Source of the DNA: a virus
Strand: one strand, 5' to 3'
IMG/VR virus record: IMGVR_UViG_3300050821_002777
Coordinates: 1 to 47,294 of that record
DNA: 47,294 nucleotides
Shown: in pieces, positions 2,346 to 32,912 of the stretch
Layout: the number at the start of each line of letters is the position of its first letter
How positions within the stretch are numbered: the stretch's first letter is position 1
Notes under the pieces: model-generated
The model's database searches: none
The model's input: only the letters and a program-made list of their open reading frames with translations
What the model was told of the DNA's origin: nothing
Position numbers and translations under genes: made by a program

Positions 2346-3011
2346 TCAACGCCTCATGGTGGAGCGTGGACGATCGACGTGGATCGGTGGTGGGGCCGGG
2401 AGAGCGTCGGGGTCGATATCGACAAGTGGCTCCGCGGTGTCCTTGCGAGTGTCGAGATCGGCGAGGTCTTGGGCAGGCTCTGGAGCCGTTGCGGATTTCG
2501 GAGCCGCGCCGGACATCAGCTGCTCGATCATCTTTTGCTGCTGGGCGACCATTGCCTTCAACGCTTCGATGTCGCTATCGGAAGTCCCGCGGAGGGATAC
2601 CGCTTGCCGCTGGCCTGCCATGTCGACTTGACGGTTCAAGGCTTCGAGGAGTTGTTTGCCGAACTCTTGGCCGATCTCGGGCGCGAGGGAGTCGATCGGG
2701 TTGACCCACTTGTGCTTTTCCGAATCCGTCTCGGCCTGAGCCTCGTCATCCATCGGTTCCATATCCGGTGTCGGTGGACCGAAGAAGACAATATCCCCGG
2801 GCTTCTCGGTGCCCTTGCGGGCGACCACGCAGATGCCTTCGTGTTTGTTAACGCAGAAGCGATCGTCGGGGTCGATCAACAGCGGGACCCGATAGGACTT
2901 CCGGAACATCCGCCCGGTGTCTTGGTTCGTCTCCTGCCGTTCCCATTCGGTCGGCTGGCCGTATTGCTCCGCATGGAGGTAGTGCTTTGCTGTGACTTTC
3001 CATCTTGCCAT
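2346..3011 (-). CDS. Hypothetical virion-region protein
   Basis: A 221-residue protein with two parts. The N-terminal 90 residues (MARWKVTAKHYL...) contain a compact mixed segment ending near IVFFGPPTPDME. The rest is acidic and helical (IEALKAMVAQQQKMIEQLM, coiled-coil-like), with a Pro/Ala/Asp-rich tail ending in STMRR. The composition suggests an assembly or linker protein. No catalytic motif is visible. It sits between signal-peptide-bearing tail proteins and the fibre genes on one transcript. Confidence 0.6.
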   Translation of the reverse strand: MARWKVTAKHYLHAEQYGQPTEWERQETNQDTGRMFRKSYRVPLLIDPDDRFCVNKHEGICVVARKGTEKPGDIVFFGPPTPDMEPMDDEAQAETDSEKHKWVNPIDSLAPEIGQEFGKQLLEALNRQVDMAGQRQAVSLRGTSDSDIEALKAMVAQQQKMIEQLMSGAAPKSATAPEPAQDLADLDTRKDTAEPLVDIDPDALPAPPPIHVDRPRSTMRR

Positions 3012-3021
3012 GGCTGGCCTC

Positions 3022-3447
3022 CTAGAGTTGCACGTACCAGATCACCGCGGCGATCGTGGCTACGCTTGGGGTAATGCAAAGGGCCGAGCCGAGCGGGAGT
3101 TGGATCGTGGCGTATTGCTGACGATCGACCGACGGCGCGGTGTTGGTGATGTTGAGTGGTGGGACGATGGTGGCAGGGTTGGTAGCACAGTTGACCCCGG
3201 TGCCGGATTGGAACGAGAAGGTCCCGGTGGCACCAGTGTTGGTGATTTCCCACCCGCAGAGGATAATGGTTTGACCAACGACCGCAGCGATCAATTGCGT
3301 GATCGTCAGCGGCCCTGCTGCCATCGTGGCGATTTTATTGCAGAGGATCAGGTTGGTCGGGCCAACGGAATTCTCTGCCCGGGCAGCCCAAGGCAAGCAT
3401 AGGCCTAGAGCCGCGACGAGGGATAGAACTAGACCTAGCTTGCGCAT
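3022..3447 (-). CDS. Exported beta-sandwich-like virion protein
   Basis: A 141-residue protein. A signal peptide is clear: MRK, a hydrophobic core, then A-A-R-A before ENSVGP at about residue 25. The rest is small beta strands with five Cys residues (LILCNK, IILCGW, GVNCAT, ALCITP), which could form disulfides outside the cytoplasm. The end, TIAAVIWYVQL, is strand-like. Its place after the decoration protein genes suggests a surface or adhesion role, but a structural role in the particle is inferred only from the gene neighbourhood. Confidence 0.6.
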   Translation of the reverse strand: MRKLGLVLSLVAALGLCLPWAARAENSVGPTNLILCNKIATMAAGPLTITQLIAAVVGQTIILCGWEITNTGATGTFSFQSGTGVNCATNPATIVPPLNITNTAPSVDRQQYATIQLPLGSALCITPSVATIAAVIWYVQL

Positions 3448-3453
3448 GGGGGT

Positions 3454-3939
3454 TTACCTTATTCTGTACCAAGAATTGGTTGCGATGAGATAACGGAACT
3501 CGACCGAAGAACCAGCGCCGAGGGTGGCGAAGGTGGTGTTGTTGACCAAGGTCGAACCGTCGGTGGTGGTAACGGTGGCACCGGTAAATGCGCCGCCAGA
3601 GCCATTGACCCACTCGAAGATTTCACCATCGAATGGAAGCGATGGAAGGGTAACGGCGAGGGAGGCAGAAGCAGCGGTGGACACAAGAGTCGCTGTGTTC
3701 GTGGTCAGGACTAGAGACCCGGAAGTCAAGGCGGTGTTGAGAACGCCTTGGGAGTTTCGGGATTGCGCCGTGGTGATAAACAGCGACGGGCCTTGCGGTC
3801 CACCGATGCCTACAGCCCAAGCCTCGTTACCGGTTAGGGTTCGAGAAGTGAGTTGCTGGGAAAGGGCGATCCCAGCAAATAGGCCAAGGGCGGCAATGAC
3901 CGCCCCCGCCAGAAGTGCACGAAGTTTGGTCATTGCCAT
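3454..3939 (-). CDS. Exported or anchored virion protein
   Basis: A 161-residue protein starting MAMTKLR followed by about 20 hydrophobic residues and ALSQQ, so it has a signal peptide or an N-terminal anchor; a start at the third residue is equally possible. The mature part is Thr/Ser/Gly-rich with a C-terminal block (FDGEIFEWVNGSGGAFTG ... SSVEFRYL ... NSWYRIR) typical of small beta-sandwich phage fibre or decoration domains. It lies 14 bases after the cement protein gene in the same direction. No enzyme motif is seen. Confidence 0.6.
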   Translation of the reverse strand: MAMTKLRALLAGAVIAALGLFAGIALSQQLTSRTLTGNEAWAVGIGGPQGPSLFITTAQSRNSQGVLNTALTSGSLVLTTNTATLVSTAASASLAVTLPSLPFDGEIFEWVNGSGGAFTGATVTTTDGSTLVNNTTFATLGAGSSVEFRYLIATNSWYRIR

Positions 3940-3944
3940 TTTCC

Positions 3945-4481
3945 TTAGTTCGCCACAGTGATGCCAGCGGGGTAACCGCCGAGCGTCGCGTTGGCTTGTT
4001 CCGGGAGATCGTGCCGGTCGAGGACGAGGAAGCCTTTGAGGACCCCCGCGCCATGGGTGCCGACGGAGACGTAGCCGAGTTGCAGGAACCGCGGAAGTGG
4101 TTGCGCGGGTGCAGGTCGGGGCATGTCGGAGTCGAACAGCCGGGCACCAGCGATCAGTGAAGCTTCGGCGACCACCGGCCCGGAGGCCATGACGGTGAAA
4201 GCACCTGCTGCGCCAGAGCCGTTGTCCGGAGCGCCTTGGATGTTGACTTGGAGCGAGGTGCCGCCTGTGAACGCCGTGGTGACGATCACAAGGATTTTCA
4301 TCGCCGGGTCATCGCCGATGCCAATATCCCGCGCGCCACCGCCTTGGGCAGAAAGCGGGAGCCCGACGATGCCAAGATCGAGGGACGAGGTGGAAGTCTG
4401 CGAACCCGTCGTGGGGGAGTCACCGGTGCCGGTGCCACCGCCAGAAGGGTTGGAGAACATTAAGAGGCCATCGAGAATCAT
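3945..4481 (-). CDS. Capsid cement/decoration protein, Bbp16-like
   Basis: A 178-residue protein encoded directly after the capsid gene. The MILDGLL start, a Ser/Thr/Gly linker, a DLG..LSAQGGGARDIG block and the central strand pair (MKILVIVTTAFTGGTSLQV) match my memory of the Bbp16 family, the cement protein of Bordetella phage BPP-1. Cement proteins sit on the outside of the shell and stabilise it after expansion. A strong ribosome site (AAAGGAG) precedes the start. Family assignment is by recognition of pattern and position, not by alignment. Confidence 0.75.
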   Translation of the reverse strand: MILDGLLMFSNPSGGGTGTGDSPTTGSQTSTSSLDLGIVGLPLSAQGGGARDIGIGDDPAMKILVIVTTAFTGGTSLQVNIQGAPDNGSGAAGAFTVMASGPVVAEASLIAGARLFDSDMPRPAPAQPLPRFLQLGYVSVGTHGAGVLKGFLVLDRHDLPEQANATLGGYPAGITVAN

Positions 4482-4492
4482 ATCTGGCTCCT

Positions 4493-5536
4493 TTAAACGA
4501 CCTGAGCTTCGTTGCTCAAGATGGCGTCCACAGTGCGGACAGGGATACCACGGAACGTGGTAATGGGTTTGCCGTTGAATTCCTCGATCCGGAGGAGAAC
4601 GTTGGTTTTGTTCATCGCTTGGAGATCGAGGTAGGTGCGGATGATACGGTTGCAGTAGATAACCGTACGGCCCATGTCCGCGCGAACCATCGGGGTGTCA
4701 GAGGTTTGGATGGTGGTCGCGGAGACGGGAGCGGTGGGGAGGCGGTAGAGAGCGCGAACGAGGAAGTTGATCAAGTTCGCAGCGGAGACGCCGGTAAGCT
4801 GGGTGACGTCGACGTTCGCGATACGGGCGACATAGCGCCAGTCGCGATTGACGAGGCCGATTTCCCACTTGAAGTGTTCACGATAGGCTTGGTAGGTGTT
4901 GCCGTTGGAATCGGTCACCGGCCACTCGCCCATGTCCCGCTGCTGGAGACCGGTGAGTTTGCCCTTCGGGAACGTGGCGAAGTTGGTATCGGAACCCCAA
5001 GTCATCACCCAGATCGAGGTGTTGGTGTTCGACACACCGCCACCGTCGAGGACGTTCGCCGCGGTGTTGGAGTTCGCGGTGGTCTTCGTCGAGTAGCGCG
5101 GGGCGAGGCCGGTGAACCGCTCCGGGTTGATGAACTGGTTGCCGTAGATCAGCGTCGAAGCAACCTGTTGCGACATGCCTTCGAGGAACGCGCGGGACTC
5201 CGAGAGCCGGAACTCCGGGGTGTTGCCGTTCAGGTCAGCGATGTCCTTGTCGATGACGGAGTAGGTTTCGAGGTTCCCGCAGGTGTCAACGATCTGCGCG
5301 GTGGTCGACTTCGCGTTCGGCACGCCGGTGTTCAGCAAGCGCCATGTGGCTTGCGGAAGTCCGGTGCGGACGGTGGTCTTGTGACCCGTTGGGAGGTTGC
5401 CCTCGACGACCATCATGTCGTCAAGGATTTCGTTCGTTTGGGAAAGAAGCTCAATGATCGCGGCGACTTTGTAGCCGTCGTCCATGCGCTTCGCCCAGTC
5501 GGCGTAGGTTAACGCCGTAGAGCCAATGGCAGCCAT
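4493..5536 (-). CDS. Major capsid protein, Bbp17-like
   Basis: A 347-residue shell protein. The N-terminal half carries the blocks TNEILDDMM, EGNLPTGHKTTVRTGLP and DIADLNGNTPEFRLSE, then GLAPRYST and SIWVMTWG, all of which I recognise from the BPP-1 (Bbp17) type of HK97-fold capsid proteins. The second half (KWEIGLVNRDWRYVARIAN, ADMGRTVIYCN, FRGIPVRTVDAIL) is equally typical. Order with scaffold upstream and Bbp16-like cement protein downstream supports it. The start is immediately preceded by a perfect hairpin that covers its ribosome site. Confidence 0.93.
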   Translation of the reverse strand: MAAIGSTALTYADWAKRMDDGYKVAAIIELLSQTNEILDDMMVVEGNLPTGHKTTVRTGLPQATWRLLNTGVPNAKSTTAQIVDTCGNLETYSVIDKDIADLNGNTPEFRLSESRAFLEGMSQQVASTLIYGNQFINPERFTGLAPRYSTKTTANSNTAANVLDGGGVSNTNTSIWVMTWGSDTNFATFPKGKLTGLQQRDMGEWPVTDSNGNTYQAYREHFKWEIGLVNRDWRYVARIANVDVTQLTGVSAANLINFLVRALYRLPTAPVSATTIQTSDTPMVRADMGRTVIYCNRIIRTYLDLQAMNKTNVLLRIEEFNGKPITTFRGIPVRTVDAILSNEAQVV

Positions 5537-5549
5537 AGGATGCTATCCT
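5537..5549 (-). promoter_or_regulatory. Hairpin covering the capsid ribosome-binding site
   Basis: On the minus strand the bases just before the capsid ATG are AGGAT-AGC-ATCCT, a perfect 5-bp inverted repeat with a 3-base loop. The first arm contains the only Shine-Dalgarno-like AGGA, 8 bases before the start. Pairing would hide it, so capsid translation may depend on ribosome arrival or unfolding. The stem is short, so the effect may be modest. Confidence 0.45.
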
Positions 5550-5630
5550 GTGTTTGGGTTAAGTTTCACTTCGTGACATCCTAAGTACCTCTGGGCTCAG
5601 CCGTTCGTCCCCTCTGGGGCGGACGTAGGA

Positions 5631-6377
5631 TTACTTTCGCAGGTGGCCGTATAGCGCGTCTGCGATCGAAGGCGGACCGGAGCCGGGGGCTTTTTGACCT
5701 TCAGGGGAAGGCCCGTTGCCACGGACTGGTTTGCCTTCGGAAAGGGGTCGGAGGAGAATGTTCAGGGCCTCGACGACATCGGGGTGCGAACCGGCACCGG
5801 TGATGTCAAGGGCCGCACGGACATTCTTCGCAAGGGTCGGGGAGAGAACGGTGTCGAGGACGTTGGAGATCATGGATTGGACCTCGCGGCCTTTGTCCCC
5901 CGGGAAGCGGTTGCCGATCTCGGTGGTCCATTCTTTCTGCAAATCGGCCCAAGCTTTGTATGGCGCTGCGGCGGCTTCGAGGGCGTTTTTGCCATAGAGG
6001 TCGACGAGCTTCTGGGCTTGGTCTTGCGACAGCCCGAGTTCTTTAAACGTGGTCTGGACTTCCTTCAGCACCGGCTCGTCGAACTTGAACCCGTCGGGGA
6101 CTTTGAAATCCTCGTACTTCTCCGGAGCGCCTACAGGTGCTTTGGGATCGCCCTTCGGATCACCGTCCTTCGGTGGGTCAGCAGGCGGGTCCTTAGCAGG
6201 AACCTTTGGATCGGGCTCCTTGGGGGTCTTGGTGAGAAACGAATCGCCTTCAGGCTTCGGTTCCGGCGTAGGGGTCGTACTCGGTGACGGGGTCACGTCC
6301 TTCAACGTCCCGTCCGGGGTCCTCGCTTCCGGTGTGTTCGGCTGCGGGGGATCGGTCGTCACTGTAGCGTCGCTCAT
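5631..6377 (-). CDS. Capsid scaffolding protein
   Basis: A 248-residue protein with the usual scaffold make-up: a long disordered Pro/Asp/Lys/Thr-rich N-terminal half (repeated PKD, DPP, DPK), then a helical region from about residue 90 (FDEPVLKEVQTTFKELGLS, AQKLVDLYGKNALEAA, WADLQKEW) and a short C-terminal end (SIADALYGHLRK) like the shell-binding tails of other scaffolds. It lies between the Bbp19-like gene and the capsid gene. Its 5' end overlaps the Bbp19-like gene by 128 bases in another frame. It would direct procapsid assembly and leave before packaging. Confidence 0.85.
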   Translation of the reverse strand: MSDATVTTDPPQPNTPEARTPDGTLKDVTPSPSTTPTPEPKPEGDSFLTKTPKEPDPKVPAKDPPADPPKDGDPKGDPKAPVGAPEKYEDFKVPDGFKFDEPVLKEVQTTFKELGLSQDQAQKLVDLYGKNALEAAAAPYKAWADLQKEWTTEIGNRFPGDKGREVQSMISNVLDTVLSPTLAKNVRAALDITGAGSHPDVVEALNILLRPLSEGKPVRGNGPSPEGQKAPGSGPPSIADALYGHLRK

Positions 6378-27853: not shown

Positions 27854-28047
27854 TGCCTGACGAACCCACAGTCCACGTCGACTCGTCAGAAATCCGTGAG
27901 GGCATTCTCGATTACGAAGTCGAGAATTGTCCTACCTGCAATAGCGAACTAGTCCAAGGCTTTGGCCTTGCTGGCGGTGGGTTCGGAGCCTATGGCATCT
28001 GCCCCAAGTGCGAACGTGTCATCTGGAAATGCTCGGTGGAAGAATGA
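27853..28047 (+). CDS. Zinc-ribbon protein
   Basis: A 64-residue protein with CPTC and CPKC, about 20 residues apart (ENCPTCNSEL, YGICPKCERV), a four-Cys ribbon. The N-terminus is acidic. It overlaps the UDG-exonuclease gene by ATGA. It could be an accessory factor for the replication proteins that follow; this is only positional. Confidence 0.68.
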   Translation: MPDEPTVHVDSSEIREGILDYEVENCPTCNSELVQGFGLAGGGFGAYGICPKCERVIWKCSVEE

Positions 28048-29144
28048 AGCCCGTCTTCCTCCTCGGGGAAGCCCAAGGCGAAGCCGAAGCCAAGATAGGC
28101 CGAGGCTTCGTCGGGACTTCCGGTGCCGAGCTTCTGCGGATGCTTCACGAAGCCGGGGTGATCACCTTCACCTCGGCGGACCGGGATTTCATGTCCCGGT
28201 ACTACCGGACCTACGACCCATGGTGCCTAGACGCAATCTGGGAACTCCATCCCGAAGTCTACCGCACTAACGTCTTCCAACAACACCCACCGAGGAACGA
28301 ACTCAAACACTTCTGCGGACCCCGGGCCACCGGCCTCCCCCATTTCCCAGCCTTGATCAAATCCGGCTACGTGCGAAAGGAATTTGCTCATGAAATGGAC
28401 CGACTTGGAGATGAAATTCTTGCGCAGGACCCTAATATCATTATCGCTCTGGGCAACTCTGCTCTTTGGGCTCTATGCGGTCGGACTGGTGTTACTAAAC
28501 TCCGCGGTACGACTTGTGTTAGCACTCATACTGTTTCTGGCTATAAGCTGCTTGTTACTTACCATCCCGCAGCGGTCTGTAGACAATGGGAACTCAGACC
28601 CACAACCGTAGCGGACCTTTCGAAAATCAATCGCGAGAAGGAGTTTCCAGATGTTAGAAGGCCAGCCTGTGAGATATGGACCGAGCCCGCTCTTGAAGAC
28701 ATCGAAGTATTCATCCGCGACGCTATTGCGCCTTGCGAGATTCTTTCGGTCGACATTGAGACTAGCGGATCGCAGATTACCTGCATTGGCTTCGCACCGA
28801 GATCAGACCTTGCTATTGTTATTCCAATCCATGACTCCCGTGGAAAGAGCGGGAGTTATTGGCCAACTCAAGCGGACGAGCGACGCTGCTGGGAGCTTAT
28901 ACGTTCAGTGCTTGAGGATAAACGGATACGTAAAGTCTTCCAAAACGGGCTCTACGACATTGCCTTTCTGTGGCGTGCATATGGCATCCGGACATTTGGT
29001 GCCCTGCACGACACCATGCTCTTGCACCACGCTTTGCAGCCGGAAAGTCTGAAGGGGCTTGGGTATTTGGGGAGTATCTATACGGATCATGGTCCTTGGA
29101 AAGTTGAGAGAAAAGGGACGGATACAATCAAGAGGGACGAGTGA
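28044..29144 (+). CDS. Uracil-DNA glycosylase fused to first part of a 3'-5' exonuclease
   Basis: A 366-residue protein. Residues 1-195 look like a family 4/5-type uracil-DNA glycosylase: GEAQGEAE at 8-15, GRGFVGTSG at 19-27, RTNVF at 74-78, IIALGNSALWAL and TYHPAAVCR with His174. From about 230 a DEDDy exonuclease begins: Asp237-x-Glu239 (SVDIET) and Asn301-x3-Asp305 (QNGLYD), then LHDTMLLHHA. The third exonuclease motif is missing here and lies at the start of the next gene. Together they would remove uracil and proofread during replication. Confidence 0.82.
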   Translation: MKPVFLLGEAQGEAEAKIGRGFVGTSGAELLRMLHEAGVITFTSADRDFMSRYYRTYDPWCLDAIWELHPEVYRTNVFQQHPPRNELKHFCGPRATGLPHFPALIKSGYVRKEFAHEMDRLGDEILAQDPNIIIALGNSALWALCGRTGVTKLRGTTCVSTHTVSGYKLLVTYHPAAVCRQWELRPTTVADLSKINREKEFPDVRRPACEIWTEPALEDIEVFIRDAIAPCEILSVDIETSGSQITCIGFAPRSDLAIVIPIHDSRGKSGSYWPTQADERRCWELIRSVLEDKRIRKVFQNGLYDIAFLWRAYGIRTFGALHDTMLLHHALQPESLKGLGYLGSIYTDHGPWKVERKGTDTIKRDE

Positions 29145-30667
29145 AAATCATCCACACAGACACGACGCAGCCAGATGATATCAAAGATCAATGGGAACGG
29201 GATCAAATCTACAACGGACTCGACTGCTGCGTTACCGCCGAGGTACTCGCCGCGATATTTCCACAGCTGGATAACGATACCGATCGGACGTATGAGTTTA
29301 GTCGGTCCCTTCAAGGGCCTGCTTTGGAGATGCGCCTACGAGGAATCCTCGTTGACCAAACCCGGAAGTCCGAAGTTATCAACGAGTTCTACGACCATAT
29401 CGACCGGCTTGAAACGCAGCTAGAACAAATCGTCCTCGACGGAGTCGGGCTCCATACCTTCTCTTGGCGAAGCAATCAGGACCTGCAGAACCTTTTCTAC
29501 AACCACTTGCAAATCCCGGTGATTAAAAAACAAGGCCGCCCGACTTGCAACCGGGATGCCTTGGAGAAAATGGAGTCCTACCTCGTAGCTCGACCAATCG
29601 TAGCACACCTCATGGCCATCCGCGATATCGATGGCAAGATCAAAATGCTCAAGACAGGGATTGATCCAGATGGGCGCATGCGAACTTCTTATAACATTGC
29701 TGGTACTTCTACAGGTCGCTTCTCTAGCAGTTTTAGCGAATTCGGTACGGGTGGAAACCTCCAGAACATTGAAGAAAGCCTCCGAAGCGTCTTTATCTCG
29801 GACCCGGGGTATAAGTTCGCAAAGTTCGATGCGAAGTCGGGAGAGAGTTTCTGCGTCGGGGCGATCGAGTGGAACCTTTTCCAAGACGGGAGATATCTAG
29901 ATGCTGTCGAGTCGGGAGATGTGCATACAGCTGTTGCAAGAATTTGTTGGCCTAAGCTTGGATGGACCGGTGACCTCAAGCGAGATAAAGATATCGCCGA
30001 GCAAGTCTACTATCGACATTACACTTACCGTTTCATGTGCAAGAAACTCGGACACGGAAGCAACTACCTCGGACAGCCAAAAACCCTCGCCGCCCAAGCA
30101 AAGCTGCCCGAGACCGTTGTCCGAGACTTTCAGCCCAAATACTTCCTTGCATTCCCAGCCCACACTCGATGGCACGCTTGGACTGATAGCCAACTACGAA
30201 CTGCAGGGTGGCTTAAAACACTTACTGGCCGAAAAAGGTGGTTTTTTGGACGTAGGAACGATCCAGCTACCTTTAGGGAAGCGATTGCGTATGATCCTCA
30301 AGGAAGCCTAGCGGATATAGTGAACGGAGCGATGCTCCGTATCTGGCGTAAACGCACGGCGATCTTAATGATGCAAGACCACGACGCGTTGACCTTTATG
30401 TATCCCGAAGAGATGGAAGATGAAATCATCCCTCAGCTACAAAAGGACCTTGTTCAAACTATCCCGTTGCAACACGGGCGAGAGTTAAAAATACCATACG
30501 ATTGCAAGACGGGGTGGAATAAAGGTGACTACAACCAAAGCAACCCAGATGGGCTCAAAGACTACAAAGGTCACGACAAACGGAAGCGCACTCCGCAAGT
30601 GTCCCTCTTGGATCGAGTCATTCGTGGAGGCAACGGCAGGGCTCGAATCTCCGATATTGTTTCGTAA
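29141..30667 (+). CDS. Family A DNA polymerase with end of the exonuclease
   Basis: A 508-residue protein from GTG 29141 (GTGA overlap with the gene before). Tyr24-x3-Asp28 (YNGLD) is exonuclease motif III. Polymerase blocks follow: STGRFSSS and GGNLQNI at 190-210, motif A FDAKSGES with Asp230, motif B from Arg297 through KKLGHGSNYLG, and motif C His414-Asp415-Ala416 (MQDHDALTF), where HDE is usual. GRKRWFF is also typical. It is shorter than T7 polymerase since the exonuclease front is in the other gene. Its tail overlaps the next gene by 143 bases. Confidence 0.88.
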   Translation: MKIIHTDTTQPDDIKDQWERDQIYNGLDCCVTAEVLAAIFPQLDNDTDRTYEFSRSLQGPALEMRLRGILVDQTRKSEVINEFYDHIDRLETQLEQIVLDGVGLHTFSWRSNQDLQNLFYNHLQIPVIKKQGRPTCNRDALEKMESYLVARPIVAHLMAIRDIDGKIKMLKTGIDPDGRMRTSYNIAGTSTGRFSSSFSEFGTGGNLQNIEESLRSVFISDPGYKFAKFDAKSGESFCVGAIEWNLFQDGRYLDAVESGDVHTAVARICWPKLGWTGDLKRDKDIAEQVYYRHYTYRFMCKKLGHGSNYLGQPKTLAAQAKLPETVVRDFQPKYFLAFPAHTRWHAWTDSQLRTAGWLKTLTGRKRWFFGRRNDPATFREAIAYDPQGSLADIVNGAMLRIWRKRTAILMMQDHDALTFMYPEEMEDEIIPQLQKDLVQTIPLQHGRELKIPYDCKTGWNKGDYNQSNPDGLKDYKGHDKRKRTPQVSLLDRVIRGGNGRARISDIVS

Positions 30668-32300: not shown

Positions 32301-32912
32301 CTAAAGGTGCTTTTGGACCATGATCCGGAACACGTTCTCGTCGGCTTGGCCGCGGACCGATGGAGCGTTGTAGTATTGGAACGCAGTGGACCAGCCAGCG
32401 GCTATCACGCTGTCGATTTCCAAGCCCACGCAACCTTTCTCGATTCCATGGCCAAGGCAGCCACCGGCGATCACAGCCGGGGTGGAGTTGGCAAGGAGGT
32501 TCGCGGGGACAAAGCCTACGAACGGGTTCTGCGCTGGAGCAGGGGCCGCAGATTGCTGGGCCGGGAAGAAGTTATAGCCCAGCTTGATGAACTGCGTGGA
32601 GGTTGCGGTGCCGGTTGATCCAGCGGTGCCGAATTGGTAGCCCCCGGTGACTTCAAACCCAGCGATGACTTGGCCTTGCCAGTATTGGTAGCCGCCACCG
32701 AAGTTCAGGCCCATACCGTTATCGGCCCCACCGGTCAGCACCCCACCGAGATTGGCGTTGTTAGAAAGACCGAAGGTAGCATAGGCCCCAGAGCAGTTGC
32801 CACCGGCAAGGCAGCTACCGAGTAACGACGGGGTTGCCTTAACCGGCAAATCCGCCGCGATTGCCGCGTTCCCCAACGCGAGCAAGGCTAGTATTGGAAG
32901 GTACTTTCGCAT
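32301..32912 (-). CDS. Outer-membrane-type protein of host style
   Basis: A 203-residue protein with a signal peptide (MRKYLPILALLALGNAAIA) and a mature start ADLPVKA, which I associate with Bradyrhizobium and related outer-membrane barrels. Following are short Gly-rich, aromatic-ended strands (YATFGLSNNANLGG, GLNFGGGYQYWQG, GFEVTGGYQFG, FIKLGYNFF), as in an 8-strand barrel, and a terminal strand VFRIMVQKHL. GGAG precedes the start. A role in blocking other phages or altering the surface late in infection is inferred. Confidence 0.7.
   Translation of the reverse strand: MRKYLPILALLALGNAAIAADLPVKATPSLLGSCLAGGNCSGAYATFGLSNNANLGGVLTGGADNGMGLNFGGGYQYWQGQVIAGFEVTGGYQFGTAGSTGTATSTQFIKLGYNFFPAQQSAAPAPAQNPFVGFVPANLLANSTPAVIAGGCLGHGIEKGCVGLEIDSVIAAGWSTAFQYYNAPSVRGQADENVFRIMVQKHL

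Follow-up and report, generated by a model that had tools for sequence, protein, structure and literature searches.

The locus raises the question of whether one proofreading exonuclease can be encoded in two pieces, with part of its active site on a uracil-DNA glycosylase (UDG) fusion and the rest on the DNA polymerase. The stretch of DNA analysed here (the window) is the IMG/VR virus record IMGVR_UViG_3300050821_002777, which is 47,294 bases long and carries tailed-phage genes for a head-tail adaptor, major head protein, terminase and tail. ORF1 (28044-29144, plus strand) starts with ATG and encodes 366 aa, with a UDG domain at approximately residues 1-200 followed by exonuclease motifs I and II. 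ORF2 (29141-30667, plus strand) starts with GTG and encodes 508 aa, consisting of an N-terminal extension, exonuclease motif III and a family A polymerase. The frame of ORF2 is -1 relative to that of ORF1, and a GTGA start/stop overlap is common to both ORFs (29141-29144, plus strand). An earlier note had placed motifs I and II in the C-terminal part of a UDG fusion and YNGLD at the start of the polymerase gene, with the genes overlapping by GTGA in different frames; the coordinates bear out both statements, and the individual residues have now been located. Elsewhere in the window, a small minus-strand ORF (32301-32912) resembles an outer-membrane protein in its glycine-rich stretches and in a start like that of a signal peptide (ALGNAAIAADLPVKA); it has no match in Pfam.

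Profile searches were consistent with this layout. ORF1 matched UDG (PF03167, 1.3e-13) and DNA_pol_A_exo1 (PF01612, 2.3e-7), the latter only over model positions 19-123 of 173, and ORF2 matched DNA_pol_A (PF00476, 3.2e-30). Both ORFs matched the same phrog_17 profile consecutively, ORF1 at positions 549-787 and ORF2 at positions 803-1238, indicating that the two genes together encode what was a single ancestral protein. The polymerase domain and the motif A and motif C aspartates of a Klenow-type family A polymerase with 3'-5' exonuclease (phrog_17) are present, and so are the DxE, NxxxD and YxxxD exonuclease motifs, but the latter are divided over two chains. ORF1 does not qualify as a stand-alone DnaQ-type exonuclease subunit of the Kuravirus kind, as its exo1 match is incomplete and lacks motif III.

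The earlier note had proposed comparison with related phages as a check, and this comparison recovered the same split widely. Among 178 distinct loci, defined by the presence of both chains after removal of duplicates, the break was at the same position in all 178 and the exonuclease and polymerase were never fused on one polypeptide; the arrangement is therefore not due to chance. The ORFs were less than 30 bp apart in 69 of the 178 loci (33 of these overlap by 4 nt and 13 by 1 nt), and in the other 109 the halves were separated by 30-1,702 bp, often with other genes between them, in relative frames 0, 1 and 2 in 37, 48 and 24 loci. The split clade is a large one of soil and freshwater phages; a bacterial genome collection yielded two MAG contigs only and no firm host. 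The clade includes an isolate, Caulobacter phage Kuura (OQ067476; PMC9959647), in which a UDG-exonuclease gene (Kuura_029) is followed by a polymerase gene (Kuura_026) with the break between motifs II and III, as in the window; Kuura differs in having two small ORFs between the halves and shares about 35% identity. A term search of the Kuura paper (PMC9959647) did not find mention of a split polymerase in the text covered, and the upstream half is easily missed because Kuura_029 is annotated as a 'hypothetical protein'.

The residues expected of both activities are conserved across these loci (all coordinates on the plus strand). In motif I (SVDIETSG, 28746-28769), D237 and E239 are present in 173 of the 173 loci that cover the column; in motif II (QNGLYDIAF, 28941-28967), N301 is present in 176/176 and D305 in 177/177; and in motif III (YNGLD, 29210-29224), Y24 is present in 178/178 and D28 in 177/178, the one deviating locus being cut off by the end of its contig. 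The polymerase motif A aspartate (D230, 29828-29830) is conserved in 85/85 and the motif C His-Asp pair (H414 and D415, 30380-30385) in 84/84. Conservation of the catalytic residues is just as strong where other DNA separates the two genes. Between close pairs, dN/dS was approximately 0.17-0.21 in the exonuclease I-II region and 0.11 in UDG, and fell to 0.07 in the polymerase and 0.05 in the motif III segment, values calculated with synonymous sites near saturation, and both chains are under purifying selection. At the end of ORF2, the polymerase codons at 30525-30667 overlap the next gene (DUF3987/primase-like) by approximately 143 nt; a long ORF overlaps the polymerase 3' end in 138 related loci (median overlap 126 nt), and synonymous change in this overlap is about halved, as expected for double-coding DNA. 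Raw mutual information was enriched between motif III plus the N-terminal extension and the exonuclease core, and between the ORF1 tail and the ORF2 extension, including in loci with at least 100 bp between the genes. After allowing for generally more coupled columns, inter-chain covariation was only 1.4-2.2 fold above the separate-column expectation, and mutual information is therefore not used as proof.

The UDG domain (28044-28643) has the GEAPG-type motif and C-terminal HP motif of family 4-like UDGs, judged by conservation of G8 (87/87), H174 (87/88) and P175 (88/88); the N-terminal CxxC that iron-sulphur enzymes of family 4 should have is absent. The same three domains occur in the same order in single-chain phrog_17 polymerases, which differ from the window in being one chain of 790-810 aa with exonuclease motifs I-III together; these include Microcystis phage Mel-JY34 (810 aa), ctMlz233, a Desulfofustis phage and many IMG/VR contigs. 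The exo1 match in such relatives reaches model position 164-165, compared to only 123 in the split chain. Because single-chain UDG-exonuclease-polymerase relatives exist, the UDG fusion is ancestral to the polymerase family, and by sequence comparison only the fission is special to the split clade. Thus, of the earlier description of a split exonuclease fused to UDG, the arrangement stands, whereas the UDG fusion is not a novelty.

Structure models were used to examine the break. In one relative (L071), the TAG stop of the UDG-exonuclease gene directly precedes an in-frame ATG, so that the TAG alone separates the halves; translating this codon as an amino acid yields a natural fusion of 868 aa. 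This fusion was modelled with AlphaFold2 from 23 rows, including fused relatives (pLDDT 83, pTM 0.78); an alignment that combined the fused protein with separate chains was left out, as polymerase chains were misaligned onto the UDG half. Junction residues 353-367 had pLDDT below 50 and formed a loop that coincides with the break; the helix carrying motif III (384-409) was continuous and confident. The ORF1 C-terminal tail after WK (29103-29141, plus strand), the natural break point in the window, corresponds to this low-confidence loop. The best Foldseek match of the fusion in the PDB was the E. coli Klenow fragment (1kfs; TM 0.71 by target, 668 alignment columns for a 601-residue target). 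When the window polymerase was modelled alone (51 rows), residues 1-40 had pLDDT 55-75 and the motif III helix was broken at 27-30, with pLDDT below 50 next to and including the motif III aspartate; in this comparison the fused model has the covalent link present and an alignment of 23 rather than 51 rows. The best matches of the polymerase alone were large fragments of Taq-type polymerases. In the polymerase of Thermus phage G20c, the late part of the exonuclease domain holds an additional structural motif (PMC9629493), suggesting that this part of the fold tolerates change.

Sequence comparison and modelling together make it likely that an old fission of a UDG-exonuclease-polymerase gene left two chains that rebuild one proofreading domain. 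A single gene would have been split long ago in the phage clade, the cut falling between motifs II and III in a loop at the protein surface. Each of the resulting genes would be translated on its own, and coupled re-initiation at GTGA is the probable route in the window; a Shine-Dalgarno-like AAGAGGGA (29130-29137, plus strand) lies inside the last ORF1 codons (IKRD), where it is placed to serve the polymerase start and fits coupled translation of the second protein, and related patterns are found in many abutting loci. The UDG-exonuclease chain would bring the metal ligands D237, E239 and D305, and the polymerase chain would bring Y24 and D28 at its N-terminus. The chains would then associate, with the motif III helix of the polymerase completing a DnaQ-fold proofreading site in trans, and the product would resemble Klenow enzyme, built from two chains and carrying a UDG domain. 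Physical assembly and proofreading activity of the pair are predictions from these data, and the two proteins probably must meet before the phage corrects copying errors. A stricter form, which we put forward tentatively as the less likely case, is that proofreading is obligately two-subunit, with the last ligand supplied by the polymerase chain, so that free polymerase would not proofread and free UDG-exonuclease would be unable to cut, and that the fission point is a landing site of several unrelated homing endonuclease families. If proofreading were obligately two-subunit, the ratio of the chains could set fidelity.

It is also conceivable, at low probability, that the halves do not cooperate: the polymerase would be effectively without proofreading, the UDG-exonuclease would have another role, and motif III would be kept for fold stability only. 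Binding of the halves is indeed a prediction, the UDG-exonuclease chain alone lacks the motif III ligand, and phage polymerases seemingly without proofreading exist, such as divPolA1 (PMC11348598); however, all three catalytic aspartates are replaced in divPolA1, where the exonuclease has seemingly been lost (PMC11348598), whereas D237, E239 and D305 are invariant here and the motif III residues are conserved as given above. Far less probable is programmed -1 frameshifting at the overlap to make a fused polymerase of about 870 residues. The window would allow it, as the two ORFs share 4 nt, ORF2 is in the -1 frame, and no stop interrupts the polymerase frame over the 11 codons before its start. 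Across the clade, however, the 109 gapped loci occur in all three relative frames; of 53 -1-frame junctions that overlap or abut, just one has a slippery heptamer, and in 11 the polymerase frame offers not a single open codon ahead of the start. Neither a conserved slippery site nor consistent room in the new frame was thus found, and on these sequences frameshifting is refuted for the clade; of the two alternatives first proposed, reconstitution by two chains is favoured by comparison and modelling, and the frameshifted fusion falls to the gaps, frames and heptamers. An assembly or sequencing error, which the earlier note had named as what would overturn its reading and which a one-base change in a metagenome contig could produce, has a negligible chance of explaining an identical break in 178 distinct loci on contigs from many metagenomes, some with whole genes between the halves, and in isolate Kuura with its two intervening small genes; the gapped loci in all frames and the Kuura split put both error and frameshifting out as general explanations. 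A split intein joining the chains post-translationally, as reported for the split PolB of jumbo phage MIJ3 (PMC6892783), is equally remote, as ORF1 ends 13 residues past the conserved WK and ORF2 starts 23 residues before motif III, chain ends too short for usual intein halves, and alignment with single-chain relatives reveals no extra domain.

In a tree of the polymerase part, a branch with SH-aLRT 96 separates the split rows from the others (99 for the window clade alone), which, with the existence of single-chain relatives, is the pattern of a split gene ('genes in pieces'). The join of Kuura carries a long-branch warning, and its group may share the window clade's fission or stem from a second one. 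Homing endonuclease ORFs of four families were found at the junction in some members: Endonuclease_7 (L004, L019, L055, L273), HNH_3 (L042, L066, L090, L091, L107, L175, L202, L298; weak in L174 and L266), LAGLIDADG (L072; weak in L006) and GIY-YIG (L291, just under the cut-off). In the single-chain branch, an HNH_3 gene is newly inserted between UDG and exonuclease in L148 (3001-5666) and L142, and their sister L127 is unsplit; by sequence, L148 and L142 represent a recent fission by an HNH_3 endonuclease gene. The junction endonucleases together with L148 and L142 make homing endonuclease insertion a plausible cause of the original fission; the endonucleases may instead have arrived later, at a position where insertion was already neutral, a scenario considered for phage 25 (PMC2988022). 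Other arrangements were also seen. Three family members (L124, L144 and L150, the latter at 2989-6364) are split just before polymerase motif A, and one ORF inserted in L150 appears methyltransferase-like by eye. The junctions of L268 (1471-2025) and L151 (3657-4175) hold a deoxynucleotide kinase-like and an RNase H-like gene, respectively. In L019, a 64-aa ORF after the UDG-exonuclease gene (4373-4567) ends in GTDTIKRDE, like the UDG-exonuclease C-terminus, and is perhaps a duplicated flank left by recombination.

Split phage polymerases, and split enzymes working as two chains, are documented (PMC2988022, PMC10580990, PMC6892783). In Aeromonas phage 25, too, the replicative polymerase is divided over two genes, accompanied by a homing endonuclease, and the gp43A and gp43B halves co-purify and have polymerase activity (PMC2988022); however, that enzyme is family B (T4-type), with an unrelated gene and break. 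OM43 phages MEP401 and MEP402 have a split family A polymerase with a small ORF between the halves, but the break is inside the polymerase domain and the exonuclease domain stays on the first gene (PMC10580990). Proofreading is also encoded apart from the polymerase in Kuravirus-type phages (PMC9965538), where the 3'-5' exonuclease is reported as a separately encoded subunit, whereas in the window motif III stays on the polymerase. NrdA of Aeromonas phage Aeh1, a ribonucleotide reductase, remains active although a homing endonuclease has divided it into two chains (PMC2988022). In the open-access literature searched, no break separating motif III from motifs I and II was found; a split phage polymerase is thus known, but a cut through the proofreading active site was not found there.

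Taken together with L148, freshly split by an HNH endonuclease, the clade illustrates how a selfish element may make two subunits out of one protein. Its polymerases lend themselves to testing if, and for what reason, such an enzyme withstands being cut through a catalytic domain, and they supply a natural model for proofreading polymerases that are split or can be switched. For the phages themselves, it presents a natural case in which a proofreading active site is divided between two proteins and fixed over a large clade.
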